64,000 nt of DNA from positions 749,196-813,195 of the forward strand of contig NZ_CP013141.1 of the NCBI RefSeq assembly GCF_001442535.1, given 5' to 3'. Source of the stretch: Lysobacter antibioticus. GTDB lineage: Bacteria; Pseudomonadota; Gammaproteobacteria; Xanthomonadales; Xanthomonadaceae. The translations under genes were made by a program, and so were the position numbers. The notes under the pieces were generated by a model. The model saw only the letters and a program-made list of their open reading frames with translations. It did not search any database and was not told where the DNA came from. This document shows, piece after piece, positions 10,393-20,714 of this stretch (its first letter is position 1; each line of letters starts with the position of its first letter).

Positions 10393-11328
10393 TCAGCCCT
10401 TGAGCAGGGCCTCGAGCACCGCCATGCGCACCGCGACGCCATTGGCGACCTGGGTCAGGATCAGCGATTGCGGACCGTCGGCGACTTCGTCGGTGATCTC
10501 GACGCCGCGGTTCATGGGCCCCGGATGCATCACCACCGCATCGGCCGCCGCGCGCTTCAGGCGCGCCGCGCTCAAACCGTAGTCGCGGTGGTAGTCCTGC
10601 AAGGAACTGACCAGGCCTTCTTCCATGCGCTCGCGTTGCAGGCGCAGCATCATCACCGCGTCGACGCCGTCGAGCGCGGCATCGAAGTCCTGGGTCACGG
10701 TGCAGCCATCGAGGGTGCCGTCGTCGGGCAGCAACGAAGCCGGTCCGCAGACGCGGATCTCGCCCATGCCGAGCGTGCGCAGGGCTTGCAGGTCCGAGCG
10801 CGCGACGCGCGAATGCTTGACGTCGCCGATCATCGCCACGCGCAGGCCCGAGAAATCGCGGCCCTTGGCCTGGCGCAGGCTGAGCATGTCGAGCAGGCCC
10901 TGGGTCGGATGCGCGCTGCGGCCGTCGCCGGCGTTGACCAGGCAGGTGCCTTCGCGCGCCTGCGCGGCCAGCGCGGCAACCGCGCCGTCTTCGCGATGGC
11001 GGACGATGAAGCCGCGCGTGCCCATGGCTTCGATGTTCTTGAGCGTGTCGAGCGCGGTCTCGCCCTTGCTCGTCGACGAGGTCGAGGCATCGAAATTCAA
11101 CACGTGCGCGCCCAGTTGCTGGGCGGCGAGCTGAAAGCTCAAGCGGGTGCGCGTGGAGGGTTCGAAGAACAGCGTGCAGACCGCGATGCCGTCGAGCGCG
11201 CGGCGATCGTAATGGCCCTCGGCGAAGGCCTGGGCGCGGATCAACAGGGCTTCGAGCATCTCGCGCGAAGCGTCGGCCAGGCTCAGCAGATGGCGCGAGC
11301 CGGCGACGATGGAAACGGGGGCGTTCAT
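10393..11328 (-). CDS. pyrB: Aspartate carbamoyltransferase catalytic subunit
   Basis: A 311-residue ATCase catalytic chain, the committed step of pyrimidine synthesis. The carbamoyl-phosphate motif STRTR is at residues 58-62, and HPTQGLLDML marks the second active-site loop. The ATG at 11328 overlaps the ruvX stop as ATGA, so the upstream part of the longer open frame is discarded. It forms a unit with algH and ruvX, as in Pseudomonas and xanthomonads. No pyrI or pyrC-like partner is adjacent. Confidence 0.95.
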   Translation of the reverse strand: MNAPVSIVAGSRHLLSLADASREMLEALLIRAQAFAEGHYDRRALDGIAVCTLFFEPSTRTRLSFQLAAQQLGAHVLNFDASTSSTSKGETALDTLKNIEAMGTRGFIVRHREDGAVAALAAQAREGTCLVNAGDGRSAHPTQGLLDMLSLRQAKGRDFSGLRVAMIGDVKHSRVARSDLQALRTLGMGEIRVCGPASLLPDDGTLDGCTVTQDFDAALDGVDAVMMLRLQRERMEEGLVSSLQDYHRDYGLSAARLKRAAADAVVMHPGPMNRGVEITDEVADGPQSLILTQVANGVAVRMAVLEALLKG

Positions 11329-15453: not shown

Positions 15454-15855
15454 TCACAGCCCCCGAGCGCACGCATCGCGCCACCGAAAATAGATATCGG
15501 TCGGAAACAGCTTGCTGAGCTCGGGCACCCTCGCCGCCGGGACGAGGCCATTGCAGCCACGATATTTCACTTCCACGAGGACATGCTGCACCGAGCCTAC
15601 GGACTCAGTGAGCACCAGACGTCCTCTTCTTCTTTGCCAGGTGCCTGTCTGCTGGTTCTTAGGGCAGATATCGCAGTTCTCAGAAGACACGTATGTGCCG
15701 TCCTTGTGCAGATCAAAGGAGCTGGTAACCCCTATTCCCCTCACCCAGACCTCGCCGCGCGCCTCCGTTTCGCCACGCCCCTCCGTTTCCATCGAACAAG
15801 ATGCAATCGAAAGCAACAAAGACACGCCAAGGCATCGAAGAATCTGAAGACTCAT
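15454..15855 (-). CDS. Small lipoprotein, candidate immunity partner of the RHS protein
   Basis: A 133-residue predicted lipoprotein beginning MSLQILRCLGVSLLLSIASC; the acylated cysteine would be Cys20 and the following Ser suggests outer-membrane sorting. The mature part looks like a short beta barrel or sandwich (FDLHKDGTYVSS, GTWQRRRGRLVL) with four further cysteines. A GGAGG ribosome site precedes the ATG at 15855. It starts 11 bases after the stop of the RHS gene on the same strand. That position and its envelope location are those of immunity proteins; the role is inferred from context only and I do not recognise the family. Confidence 0.75.
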   Translation of the reverse strand: MSLQILRCLGVSLLLSIASCSMETEGRGETEARGEVWVRGIGVTSSFDLHKDGTYVSSENCDICPKNQQTGTWQRRRGRLVLTESVGSVQHVLVEVKYRGCNGLVPAARVPELSKLFPTDIYFRWRDACARGL

Positions 15856-15866
15856 GTCACCCTCCG

Positions 15867-18800
15867 TCAATGTTTTCCATAGCTCCCATTCGCAATCGAG
15901 GGAATCCTGTTAGCGGTATCCCGGATCGCCCGGAGAATAACCCTCCTACATTTTTCATCGCACCTATCAAGCTGCCTAAGCTTGGCAGCGAGGCAACGCA
16001 ATTCAGCGGCATGCGCCGAAAACTCACTGAGCATTCTTTGCGCGGTATCGTCATCAGCAAGATACCTCACATCACCGTGACCCGACTCCCAAAAATTCTC
16101 CGTGCATATACTTGGAGAGAGACCTCGAGCAGTCTTGATGTGCGAGCTTTCATGGGCAAGAACACAGTCTCTTATCGGACCTGGGCATTCGCCATAAGCC
16201 CATGCAAGAGTCCTTTCGTTAACAATAGGAAGCAGTTCCCCTCCCTTACACGCAACCCATCCAAGCACATCATCTCCTGTTACAAACCCGGGGCCCAATG
16301 CGGGGCTCAAACCGTAAAGATCCCACTTTGAAAGCGGGGAAGAATCTGAATAGGCATAAGTAGCAACACCACCTTTCAGACCGATAGGATCACTCTGAGA
16401 ATACCTACCTACCGCTGAATCATAATCACGGAAATAGTTATAACTCATCCCACTTACAGCGTCATGAAGCTGCCCTGGAAATCTCATATCCAGCACGAAA
16501 GCGATTCCATCTTGATCAGGGTCTTGATTCGGTGACCCGCTGCCGAACGCCTCACCTTTTATATCCCAATTCCATACAGCCACATTCCGGACCGCATCTA
16601 TGACGACCCGCGGCGTCGCCAAATGATCTGGCTCGATGTAATGAAGCGCATTGTTTCCGACAAACAAACCAACAGGAAGATGGTCCATCCAAACGACTTG
16701 CTGAACCAGATTCCCATTGCCGTCGTACTCTCCTAACCGCCTGCCAGACTCATCATAAATAGAAAAGGAGTTCCCGCTTTCTGTCTGTTTACGAACCAGC
16801 TCGCCGCGACCATTATAGAAATAGGTCTTCAGCAACGTCGGACCTTGTTTGAGCTCACTGCTTCGACCCGCATCGTTATAGACGAAGGTTTTGCCATCGA
16901 CTTGCGTGGCATTGCCGCTTGCATCGTAGCTACGAGAACTGCCCGAGTTTGCGTGAATCAATCGATGACTATCGGCCGGATAGGTGTATGTGTGAGCACC
17001 TCCGGCGTTCGCGAAACTCAGACGATTGCCTGTCGCATCATAGGTATAGCTCTCAATCGCTTCATTCGTAGGCCCGTCGCGAAGGTGGGTCAGACGGTTT
17101 AGCGCATCGTAGCTATAGGCCAGCAGCGGATTCGCTGTACCTGCGGGAGTCAGTTTATTGATATTGCTGACAGCATCGAAACCGAGACCGAAAGACAGAC
17201 CACCGGGTGCGGGATCAGAGACCGCGGCAGGGCGATAGTCAAGATCGAGCGGGCGCGCCATGACCCGCCCATTGCCATAGGTCCAACCCACAGCGGGACC
17301 GAATGCCTGATAGCTCACTTGGCTTAACAACATCTCGGCTACCCCCCCGGCACCGCCCTTGGCATCGATCCGGCTAATGCGCCCCTGCACATCGCGTCGA
17401 TACTCAACCGTCGCACCGTTGGGGTATGTGATGCGGCTTAATTGCCCAGCCAAATCGTAGGCGTATTGCAAGGTAAATACCTTGCCGTTCGTAGTCTGGA
17501 CTTTACGCACTGTGTGACCGAAGCGATCGTAGCAATATTGCGTACTCCCGCTGAAGTCGGCCATCAAAGTCAAACGCCCTTGAGTGAAATTTTCGCCTGC
17601 AGGGCAAACGGCCGGCACACTGTCGTAGACATAGGCCTCATTAAGGCCGCTAGTCGGATAGCTGACGGCGACTAAGCGATTGAGTGCGTCGTAGCTATAG
17701 GTGCGCTCGACACCACGCGCATCCGTATCGCCCTTGAGGTTACCGGCACTGTCATACAAGAAAGTGCTGACACCCGTGTCCGGGCTCGATAGGCGGACTT
17801 TATCGCCAAATCCGTTGTACCCGTATGCCGTCTTCAGGCCCTTCGGATCACTAACCTCAGTTAGACGATCAAGCGCATCGTGTTTGAACTCGCTCTTGGC
17901 ATTGATGCCGCCGACGTCCTGCAGGGTCTTGGCCAAGCGATCGAGCGGATCGTAGTCGTTGTCGGTCTTGCGGCCGAGCGCATCGGTGGTGACGTCGCCG
18001 TTGCCGTTGGCGTCATAGCTGAAGCCGGTCGGGTGACCCTCCGCGGTCTTCGCCGTCTTGAGTTGGCCTAACTGGTTATAGACCCGTGACAGGGTACGCA
18101 TCAGCGCCCCGTTGCTGTCGTTCGTGTCTTCCTTGGTCCGGTTGCCGGCGTTATCGAGCGTGTAGTGAATGCGGTTGCCGGCGTTGTCGTAGATGTCGGT
18201 CAGGCGATGTGCCGCGTCGTATTCGTAGCGCACGAACATGCCGTCGGGCTGGATGACCTTCTTGATCTGGCCAGTCAGGTCGTACTCCATGCGAGTGATC
18301 GCATCATCGGCTTCCGAGCCGTTATTGGTGCCGCGCACCTTGCGTGCCGCCAGCCAACCGCGCGGGGTGTATTCCAGATCGGTCACGACGCCGTTGGCGT
18401 CCTTGCTCGACAGCGCTCGGCCGGCGACGTCGTAACGCAGAAACTCGGTGGCGTGGCCGAGCGCGTCGGTGATCTTCCACAGGTCGCCCTTGCGGTAGGC
18501 GCAGGTTGCAGGCGATGCGGCGCAGGCCGGGTCGTCGCTGGCGTAGTACGAATAACTGGATACGTCGGCCACATCGGTCCGCGGCCCGTCGACGGCCTTG
18601 ACCGCGCCGAGCACCGGGCAGTTTCCGCCCGCGGCGACATCGGCCGCCTCGCAATAGGTCGTAGTCGTGGTGCGCTCGGCATTGGTGACCGGATCGACCT
18701 GGGTCGAGGTCACGACTTGGCCGCGGTCGTTGTGGGTCCACTTGGATTTGGCGATCAGGGCATCCGTGTTATTGAGCGTGCGCCTTTCGGTGGGCCGCGA

Positions 18801-20714
18801 GTACGCCGCATGCCAATCGGTTTGAATCGTGCGCGTATGCGGCATTACTCCCGCGCCCGAACTTAAGCCCTCTTTACGACTCGTCTCCTGGAACTGGTCG
18901 TATACATAGTTCGTTCGCGCACCCAATGAAGTCTTGCTCCACTGTCGCCTATTAGCCGAGTAGAACGCTGTCTCTGGCGCAGTTACCGATCCATCGGTCG
19001 TAGCGACCGCGATTTGAGTGGGTTGGCGAAAGGCCTCGGTAGAGAAGGTATAGGTTTTTACCGCACCCGTCGGCAAAGTCACTGTCGTCGTACCGTTTGC
19101 GTTATACGCAAGCGAGACCTTGCCCGCTCCACCGGCATGATCGCTGATTGTCACGCGCCCGTATTCGTCGTAATCATAGGTCGCATAACGCTGACCGTTT
19201 TCATCGACCACCCCCGTCAAATGATGCGGGAACAACTTGGGGTCGCAACCGGGAATCGCTGCTCCTGTCGCCGTGCGGCAAAGATGATCTGCTTCGGCAT
19301 ACAGGTACTCGGGACCCTCGCCGGCCTCGGGCCCCGCCTTGCTGACATGCGTCAACCGGCCCATCGAATCATAAACATACTCGACGAGCGACTTGCCGTC
19401 GGCTTCGATCCGCCCGATGCGAACGCCGTTATCGTCCAGACTCGGTTGAGCCGCGAGGACATAATGTAACGAAATCGCTCTTCCCGACGGGCTGCGAATA
19501 CGCAGCAAGTCTCCCGCAACCAGACAGATTGCGGACTGGACATCAGCCTCGGTGCAGTAACTCACGCTATAAAATCGACCGCCGCGATCGAAACCGACCA
19601 AACGGCCTGCTTCGCTGAACCATACAAGCTCCCCTGCGCCCGAGGAGAGACGCCAGCGACCGTATTGAGCGGCCACGGCATCCGGCTCACGAACCAAGAT
19701 CACGCCAGGACGGTTCGTCGAACGGTAGGTGGTTTCCGTCACCTTCGTCATAAGCTCAAAGTAGCCATCGGACCTTACCCAGGTCTGCGGCAACCCGTTG
19801 TACATCATCATCTGGGCCGAATAGGAATGCGCCCAGTTGTCTCCCAGCCCGGATTGCAACGACAAATCCCGCACGGAGTTGTACACCCGCTGGAACGTGT
19901 CGCCTTCCCAGTCGAAGTCGCTATCGCGATATTCCTTATTGCCGGTGGCCGCAACGGCTGGATTTCCGTCCTTGCAGCAAGAATCGTACTGGGCGGACTT
20001 CTTGGAAATCGTCCCTCTGGCGGTATTGGTACAAACCAGCGGCCACTTGATGGTCGAATTCGCATACGCCGCTGAAAATGTCGCCGGGCAACGATACCAA
20101 TCCCTCCTTGTGATATACCAAGGGTGAATTTGTGTCGGCGAAACCTGAACATCGAGCCTACGCGCGGATGGCTCAGCGCTAGTGTAATTACGCGATTGAT
20201 AGAGATATTCGCCTTGCGGCGTCCAACTGATAGTGCTCGGCTCGTAGGCGCCGGAATAGGTACCGTTTACTGGCTGGCTATAGAGGGATGATCTATAAGC
20301 ATCGACCGCCATCGTCGCCTCGTCGCCGCACCAAATGGAAGCGTCCGGAGCCGTTACCGCACCGGTGGAATTGGCTGAATTGCAGCCACGCCAGGTGCTT
20401 ACATAGTTGGCCCGATAGAAATCATCGATGTAGATCGGCGTACGACGCTTGGTCTTATATTCCCGGAAGAAATTGCCAGGCCCAATCTCGCGAGTGGAAT
20501 CCACTTCCAAGAGCGAATTCCCGATCGGCGTCGCCGGCTCCGTACGAATGTAGCTCTCAGCTTCGCCCAAAGTATTGAAACACGCCGTCTCCTGCCCCGG
20601 CATATAGCGCGTGGCGCAGTACTGGTCGGCCGCCAGCGAAACGCCGGGAAGCAGCAAAATCGCCAACGTCGCACAGACGAGGGATACGAAGCGGAGCAAT
20701 GCGCTATGCGCCAT
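15867..20714 (-). CDS. Exported RHS-repeat protein with C-terminal zincin-like toxin domain
   Basis: A 1615-residue RHS/YD-repeat protein. A Sec signal peptide ends near residue 28 (PGVSLAAD). A DUF6531-like region starts about residue 247 (GNPAVAATGNKEY). YD repeats such as YEYDAAHRLTDIYDNAGN fill residues 500-1420. The RHS core ends in DPIGLKGG ... DLYGL at residue 1469. The last 146 residues are a variable tip containing LAHESSHIKTA: His1521, Glu1522 and His1525 form an HExxH zinc site, with Glu in EFSAHAAELRCL as a possible third ligand. Such cages release C-terminal toxins in contact-dependent competition. The 5' and 3' thirds are AT-richer than the middle. No VgrG or PAAR domain is seen. 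Confidence 0.9.
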   Translation of the reverse strand: MAHSALLRFVSLVCATLAILLLPGVSLAADQYCATRYMPGQETACFNTLGEAESYIRTEPATPIGNSLLEVDSTREIGPGNFFREYKTKRRTPIYIDDFYRANYVSTWRGCNSANSTGAVTAPDASIWCGDEATMAVDAYRSSLYSQPVNGTYSGAYEPSTISWTPQGEYLYQSRNYTSAEPSARRLDVQVSPTQIHPWYITRRDWYRCPATFSAAYANSTIKWPLVCTNTARGTISKKSAQYDSCCKDGNPAVAATGNKEYRDSDFDWEGDTFQRVYNSVRDLSLQSGLGDNWAHSYSAQMMMYNGLPQTWVRSDGYFELMTKVTETTYRSTNRPGVILVREPDAVAAQYGRWRLSSGAGELVWFSEAGRLVGFDRGGRFYSVSYCTEADVQSAICLVAGDLLRIRSPSGRAISLHYVLAAQPSLDDNGVRIGRIEADGKSLVEYVYDSMGRLTHVSKAGPEAGEGPEYLYAEADHLCRTATGAAIPGCDPKLFPHHLTGVVDENGQRYATYDYDEYGRVTISDHAGGAGKVSLAYNANGTTTVTLPTGAVKTYTFSTEAFRQPTQIAVATTDGSVTAPETAFYSANRRQWSKTSLGARTNYVYDQFQETSRKEGLSSGAGVMPHTRTIQTDWHAAYSRPTERRTLNNTDALIAKSKWTHNDRGQVVTSTQVDPVTNAERTTTTTYCEAADVAAGGNCPVLGAVKAVDGPRTDVADVSSYSYYASDDPACAASPATCAYRKGDLWKITDALGHATEFLRYDVAGRALSSKDANGVVTDLEYTPRGWLAARKVRGTNNGSEADDAITRMEYDLTGQIKKVIQPDGMFVRYEYDAAHRLTDIYDNAGNRIHYTLDNAGNRTKEDTNDSNGALMRTLSRVYNQLGQLKTAKTAEGHPTGFSYDANGNGDVTTDALGRKTDNDYDPLDRLAKTLQDVGGINAKSEFKHDALDRLTEVSDPKGLKTAYGYNGFGDKVRLSSPDTGVSTFLYDSAGNLKGDTDARGVERTYSYDALNRLVAVSYPTSGLNEAYVYDSVPAVCPAGENFTQGRLTLMADFSGSTQYCYDRFGHTVRKVQTTNGKVFTLQYAYDLAGQLSRITYPNGATVEYRRDVQGRISRIDAKGGAGGVAEMLLSQVSYQAFGPAVGWTYGNGRVMARPLDLDYRPAAVSDPAPGGLSFGLGFDAVSNINKLTPAGTANPLLAYSYDALNRLTHLRDGPTNEAIESYTYDATGNRLSFANAGGAHTYTYPADSHRLIHANSGSSRSYDASGNATQVDGKTFVYNDAGRSSELKQGPTLLKTYFYNGRGELVRKQTESGNSFSIYDESGRRLGEYDGNGNLVQQVVWMDHLPVGLFVGNNALHYIEPDHLATPRVVIDAVRNVAVWNWDIKGEAFGSGSPNQDPDQDGIAFVLDMRFPGQLHDAVSGMSYNYFRDYDSAVGRYSQSDPIGLKGGVATYAYSDSSPLSKWDLYGLSPALGPGFVTGDDVLGWVACKGGELLPIVNERTLAWAYGECPGPIRDCVLAHESSHIKTARGLSPSICTENFWESGHGDVRYLADDDTAQRMLSEFSAHAAELRCLAAKLRQLDRCDEKCRRVILRAIRDTANRIPSIANGSYGKH

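Follow-up and report, generated by a model that had tools for sequence, protein, structure and literature searches.

Introduction

The closest described counterparts of the element reported here are VgrG2b C-ter with its antidote PA0261 and the pair Tpe1/Tpi1 (PMC6899460). According to the accessible part of that report, the gluzincin residues of VgrG2b C-ter are H935, E936, H939 and E983, the toxin has been linked to cell-division damage, and lipoprotein release occurred in lysates at unphysiological amounts; antidotes of this type have partly conserved cysteines and are periplasmic, predicted lipoproteins or membrane-anchored, depending on the species. HExxH tips of RHS proteins have been catalogued as Tox-MPTase1-5, several of them listed with a Sec/type II secretion system route, and a lipoprotein antidote (Imm65) is called exceptional in the available part of that catalogue (PMC3482391, Zhang et al. 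2012). For the type VI secretion system (T6SS) of Vibrio cholerae, the portion of the report at hand describes a new toxin-antidote pair displacing the old toxin, with the old antidotes staying downstream (PMC5361080). Here we analyzed a stretch of 64,000 nucleotides from Lysobacter antibioticus (NZ_CP013141.1, positions 749,196 to 813,195; hereafter the window), in which an RHS gene ends in a cysteine-rich HExxH tip and is followed by a lipoprotein gene. An earlier note on this DNA had proposed a zinc-peptidase tip with an immunity lipoprotein, and after testing this was still the best reading of the sequence: the locus probably encodes a polymorphic RHS toxin with a zinc-peptidase tip and an adjacent immunity lipoprotein, acting in the periplasm of the target.

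Like VgrG2b C-ter/PA0261 and Tpe1/Tpi1, the window tip is a small predicted HExxH gluzincin with a Glu as third ligand on a later helix; the likeness extends to the presumed periplasmic action and to a predicted exported antidote, marked in the window by a lipobox (PMC6899460, accessible part). The window tip differs in being Cys-rich and in its carrier, a Sec-signal RHS protein in a sheath-less genome instead of a VgrG spike delivered by the T6SS. With Tox-MPTase1-5 it shares an HExxH domain on an RHS protein, whereas the Cys set and ExxA of its family are not among the motifs given in the part of the catalogue at hand (PMC3482391).

Results

A cysteine-rich tip with a predicted gluzincin signature

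The tip of 146 residues with HESSH and seven cysteines was found as the earlier note had described it, the cysteines being exactly residues 20, 41, 48, 68, 105, 116 and 120. Shuffling of the tip's own residues produced HExxH in 1,644 of 200,000 trials (0.8%), so that the motif in a single tip is only suggestive and the relatives have to decide. All of the 18 aligned tips, the window tip included, were identical at HExxH, Glu95, Ala98, Cys20, Cys48, Cys68 and Cys105, indicating that the motif is not a product of chance. Leave-one-out profiles recovered every one of the 18 with a worst E-value of 3.9e-14, an optimistic figure as the alignment was shared. Glu95 is the first E of EFSAHAAEL and lies 39 residues beyond HExxH, with Ala98 three residues further. 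A third zinc ligand had been predicted in this helix; the invariant first Glu agrees with that prediction, and the His of the segment varies among the 18 tips. In gluzincins, HExxH is joined by ExxA in a helix further along the chain. Judged by its residues, the tip carries this signature (HExxH with a downstream Glu and Ala).

The AlphaFold2 model of the tip, computed from six sequences, had a predicted TM score of 0.73 and a mean predicted local distance difference test of 73.9, with block means of 95 and 88 over residues 41-60 and of 83 and 96 over residues 91-110. It placed HExxH in a helix of residues 42-63 and Glu95 in a helix of residues 87-112, with a beta hairpin ahead of both.

The tip had been recognised in no named family, and it indeed gave no match in Pfam at E 1 and no family in NCBIfam. 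Comparison of nine tip-family members with Pfam returned two weak unrelated families only, and none of Tox-MPTase1-5 or DUF4157. Against the sequences of solved structures, the single sequence and two profiles found no chain of the VgrG2b C-ter/Tpe type, a direct profile of that family not being among those compared. A literature search on RHS with metallopeptidase, Lysobacter or zinc found no title or abstract start describing the tip family, subscription papers being mostly outside its scope. As the tip lacks a Pfam match, it adds a so far unnamed toxin to an established type.

The single-tip search gave matches in 10 of 395 genomes of the taxonomic family at E 0.01, including the own genome, and a seven-sequence profile, with the limit set to E 0.001, matched 15 of 398 genomes from the order. 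Before counting, L017 (two internal stops) and L018 (a 31-residue match in a non-RHS frame) had been left out of the former search, and L059 (a non-RHS frame) out of the latter. A pattern scan revealed tip-family loci in Lysobacter maris, Xanthomonas sp. LMG 31884, Pseudoxanthomonas wuyuanensis, Thermomonas flagellata, Stenotrophomonas sp. PS02289 and Variovorax sp. J22P271, four of these six overlapping with matches of the earlier genome searches. When a 14-sequence profile was applied to a 354-genome sample of the phylum, the own genome was the sole match, and the family therefore looks rare outside the order. The relatives are approximately 17-39% identical to the window tip. Beside its tip linked to a CGG lipoprotein (see below), T. 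flagellata has two more RHS tips rich in cysteine (L038:6494-6910 and 10500-10925), which contain HEVLH and HEATH; each is followed by a protein with a hydrophobic N-terminus, one of them with an AAGC lipobox.

Exchange of tip and lipoprotein at a fixed locus

The ATG of the lipoprotein gene lies 11 bp past the RHS stop and is preceded at 5 nt by GGAGG; this spacing and the lipobox IASC are directly visible, as had been noted before. Serine at lipoprotein position +2 suggests the outer membrane. The protein belongs to a family, here named CDIC, with four conserved cysteines besides the lipid-bearing one. The G+C contents of the RHS body (57.1%; third positions 65.1%), the tip (52.1%; 46.6%) and the lipoprotein gene (57.4%; 65.4%) compare with 67.2% for the window.

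Of 19 congeners compared through the two flanking proteins, G001 was the closest (PilU-type ATPase 100% and the other flanking gene 88% identical). Its DNA matched the window at 85-97% identity in the stretch that precedes the RHS gene and runs into its start, and at 85% just beyond the locus. The identity from 16330 to 15281, covering the tip, the lipoprotein and approximately 170 bp more, was 25-36%, the level of background. By this one pairwise comparison, tip and lipoprotein are replaced jointly in G001. The RHS body is mosaic with respect to the same genome (window 17681-20530 vs L080): identity was 46-94% overall, and 87-94% over 17831-18730 with flanking stretches of 46-72%, which suggests recombination inside the carrier too. 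Both flanking genes are held by 15 genomes, ten of which carry an RHS gene between them, and no pair among these ten tips matched (phmmer, E 0.01). Across this set, as in G001, the C-terminal tip varies between strains behind a related carrier.

In another congener, G010, the RHS gene at the same locus has a diverged HExxH tip, kin to the window tip by the family profile. The run of genes there (L036:9534-12957) comprises the RHS partner, a lipoprotein, a membrane protein, a CGG lipoprotein, a CDIC lipoprotein and a further small protein. The orphan CDIC lipoprotein is 57-60% identical to that of the window. The CGG lipoprotein is likewise an orphan here; in Pseudoxanthomonas, Thermomonas and Stenotrophomonas, members of its family are encoded immediately after tip relatives. 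Third-position G+C was 44-52% in the run of small genes vs 75-90% in the flanking genes. The run looks like an archive of orphan antidotes and would follow the displacement pattern of the orphan immunity arrays of V. cholerae (PMC5361080, available part). Unlike those arrays, it belongs to an RHS locus of Lysobacteraceae and would hold exported antidotes. At the same locus of G014 (L087, 374-1184 of the reverse complement), two small lipoprotein-like genes are left, one of them of the CGG family, and the RHS core motif was not found, as if antidotes persisted without their toxin.

The joint exchange in G001, the non-matching tips at ten loci and the orphan relatives in G010 are the grounds for pairing tip and lipoprotein as toxin and immunity protein. 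By the same evidence, co-variation of the two, anticipated in the earlier note, came out positive at the level of the locus. The toxin-immunity reading is well supported by these genome comparisons, and the downstream gene very probably encodes a membrane-anchored antidote.

Partner proteins across the tip family

All 23 family tips, including that of the window, have a candidate small protein whose N-terminus is hydrophobic no more than 200 bp away; here and in the controls discussed below, start codons were chosen for the highest hydrophobicity. The 23 include five tip fragments (L043, L055, L056, L057 and L066) that are outside the tree. The partner of L057 appears split across two frames; it was counted via its first frame of 94 amino acids and is absent from the partner grouping. 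The 22 downstream proteins and three orphans formed four groups (CDIC, CGG, LPW and MRR) and three singletons, unlinked by phmmer at E 0.01. On the tree of 18 tips the partner labels needed 5 changes for 6 states, the minimum, and none of 300 shuffles reached 5. Given this minimum and the candidate exported partners throughout, the antidote family appears to change with the tip clade, and the export of the antidote to stay constant.

The wider family of the lipoprotein

Relatives of the lipoprotein were found at 15 places beyond its own. Thirteen of these were read, one of which (G010, L021) is an RHS locus; the other two, L033 and L034, are weak matches. Some relatives neighbor TonB-like genes or a gene for a repeat-rich surface protein, both assigned by eye. 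In G027 and G080, CDIC relatives lie inside arrays of repeats which we take to be attC-like; these are integron-like arrays of small cassettes (L044:2884-14139 in G027, L024 in G080), with 15 attC-like sites in L044 by one pattern. The neighbor of the CDIC relative in L044 is a SUKH-1 protein (PF09346, 1.4e-6), of a superfamily known for antidotes. At E 0.0001, a profile of the lipoprotein family found matches in 7 of 388 genomes from the order, and the only new relative among them (G591) had no RHS core motif within approximately 5 kb. Since most relatives are away from RHS genes, the gene neighborhoods are best explained if the lipoprotein was recruited from a broader family of envelope proteins. 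The earlier note had held that conservation of the lipoprotein beside unrelated RHS tips would speak against the pairing; with most loci read over about 3.3 kb, the HExxH tip that precedes the sole other RHS-linked copy is a related one.

The lipoprotein showed weak local similarity to NlpE (NF007814, E 0.0014; cutF chain 2z4h, E 0.11). Identity as NlpE was rejected, as the score was 18.1 bits against a cut-off of 243 and the Cys pair of CDIC faces no Cys in the cutF alignment.

The RHS carrier and its delivery

The RHS repeats and the RHS-associated core were confirmed by PF05593 (3.2e-61) and TIGR03696 (54.6 bits, cut-off 32.5). The N-terminus of the carrier is hydrophobic and of the Sec type, MAHSALLRFVSLVCATLAILLLPGVSLA/ADQ, judged by eye, in agreement with the earlier note. 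That note had gone on to place the toxin in the envelope because of this signal, a step that proved weak: two RHS genes of the own genome with Sec-like N-termini (L070 and L072) have cytosolic-looking partners, so that the signal of the carrier is no pointer to the periplasm. Periplasmic action is argued for instead by the exported antidotes and the conserved cysteines. The own genome, a single contig with a completeness of 99.99%, gave no match for the gene of the T6SS sheath protein VipB/TssC, E. coli giving a match as the positive control, and delivery by the T6SS is thus improbable.

The own-genome loci L069-L072 are further RHS genes with Sec-like leaders, and HExxH is missing from their four tips. 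The tip of L072 resembles, by eye, that of the congener G003 at the locus of the window (L082).

Table 1. Positions of the RHS carrier, its tip and the lipoprotein gene in the window
Feature	Position	Strand	Remarks
RHS carrier gene, 1615 amino acids (aa)	15867-20714	minus	DUF6531, 11 RHS-repeat stretches, RHS core aa 1407-1469
N-terminal Sec-type signal peptide of the carrier, ~28 aa	20631..20714	minus	cleavage site by eye
C-terminal putative toxin tip, 146 aa, after the DLYGL core end	15870-16307	minus	Cys-rich HExxH...ExxA, without Pfam/NCBIfam match
HESSH, tip residues 52-56	16140-16154	minus	predicted zinc ligands His52/His56, predicted catalytic Glu53; 18/18 aligned tips
Codon for Glu95 of the tip (SEFSAHAAEL), predicted to be the third zinc ligand	16023..16025	minus	E95 and A98 in 18/18
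Lipoprotein of 133 aa, proposed immunity protein	15454-15855	minus	lipobox IASC, Ser at +2; CDIC family

Discussion

Several observations weigh against the interpretation of the locus as a zinc-peptidase toxin with its immunity lipoprotein. Foldseek of the tip model found no match in the PDB at E 0.001 and the best Z of VIA-align was a middling 5.5, so the zincin fold is unconfirmed by structure comparison. The pairing of the lipoprotein with exactly this tip occurs in one genome. At twelve other places of lipoprotein relatives the RHS core motif was not found, the stretch read being mostly 3.3 kb. Tip relatives pair with at least three antidote families besides CDIC; the earlier note had named other genes downstream of the tip as a ground for refutation, and such genes do exist. 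In all 22 other cases examined, however, the gene encodes a small protein that is a candidate for export, and the partner families track the tip tree, none of them recurring. Half of the RHS controls with other tips, treated by the identical procedure, had partners with a hydrophobic N-terminus too (6 of 12; Fisher p 0.0006 against 23 of 23). This contrast is a guide, not proof, because the hydrophobicity cut of 1.8 was fixed after the values had been seen, two controls fell just below it (1.72 and 1.66; at a cut of 1.6 the controls are 8 of 12), and the 23 family rows are related and hence not independent. Outside the 12 controls were L046 (a 34-residue RHS tail), the two Thermomonas HExxH tips of other types, and the own-genome loci L068, L073, L074 and L075, in which no standard core-plus-tip was read.

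Among the alternatives, the one that survives best, although improbable, is that the tip is toxic and the lipoprotein is a general CDIC envelope protein that happens to lie downstream. The TonB-like, surface-protein and integron-like surroundings of its relatives, the twelve places without RHS core motif, and the other partners of tip relatives would agree with this. On the other hand, the gene follows at 11 bp with its own ribosome site and was swapped with the tip in G001, the orphan CDIC relative of G010 lies in the small-gene run behind RHS next to an antidote homologue of the tip family, and at every other tip of the family that was examined the slot of the lipoprotein is occupied by a candidate exported protein. 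There is also a small chance, marginally below that of the previous alternative, that HExxH belongs to another metal enzyme or to a structural metal site and the tip is no peptidase. HExxH with a Glu on a later helix is, however, the gluzincin arrangement, as in VgrG2b C-ter (PMC6899460, accessible part), and the HExxH toxin families ALF, HopH1 and Tox-MPTase1-5 are filed as metallopeptidases in the available part of the catalogue (PMC3482391).

It is rather unlikely that the RHS protein is exported to serve in predation or against a host, with a tip that digests extracellular or eukaryotic proteins. The Sec-like leader and the lack of a T6SS sheath gene in the genome would suit such a role, and Lysobacter-type bacteria are predators; downstream and orphan antidote genes are nevertheless expected only when kin cells are the targets. 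Least probable is an action of the tip in the cytosol, as for many RHS toxins, with an incidental lipoprotein: the cytosolic-looking partners of L070 and L072 would allow it, whereas the four cysteines identical in 18 of 18 tips and the candidate exported partners of 23 of 23 speak against it.

As a periplasmic zinc-peptidase toxin with an immunity lipoprotein, the system would operate as follows. The carrier, with its visible leader, would be exported by Sec and presumably reach neighboring cells by a contact or secretion route other than the T6SS; the tip would then be freed from the RHS shell, as the RHS core implies. In the periplasm of the target the tip may act as a small zinc endopeptidase stabilised by disulphides; the zinc would be held by His52, His56 and Glu95 and water activated by Glu53, in keeping with their invariance. 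The periplasm of the producer would be protected by the lipoprotein, lipid-anchored with its folded part periplasmic and, as Ser at +2 suggests, probably in the outer membrane, where it may block the tip by binding. Tip and antidote would be swapped together at a fixed chromosomal locus, to go by the one pairwise comparison, and displaced antidotes may remain as orphans, as in the homologous array of G010.

A broader proposal, which we put forward only tentatively and hold to be somewhat doubtful as a whole, is a new family of disulphide-stabilised periplasmic zinc-peptidase tips, one fold kept in check by exported antidotes from four or more unrelated families, whose genes would be stored for later use in orphan runs of RHS loci and in integron-like cassette arrays, such as that with the CDIC relative beside the SUKH-type gene.

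The tips described here would add a well-delimited, unnamed family of zinc-peptidase toxins to the polymorphic toxins. They would provide a natural series of one toxin fold facing different antidote families, so that the pace of antidote vs toxin replacement, and the way in which exported antidotes recognise a protease active site, become testable on small proteins. The Sec-signal RHS carriers, whose genome has no T6SS sheath gene, also raise the question of how such toxins are delivered.
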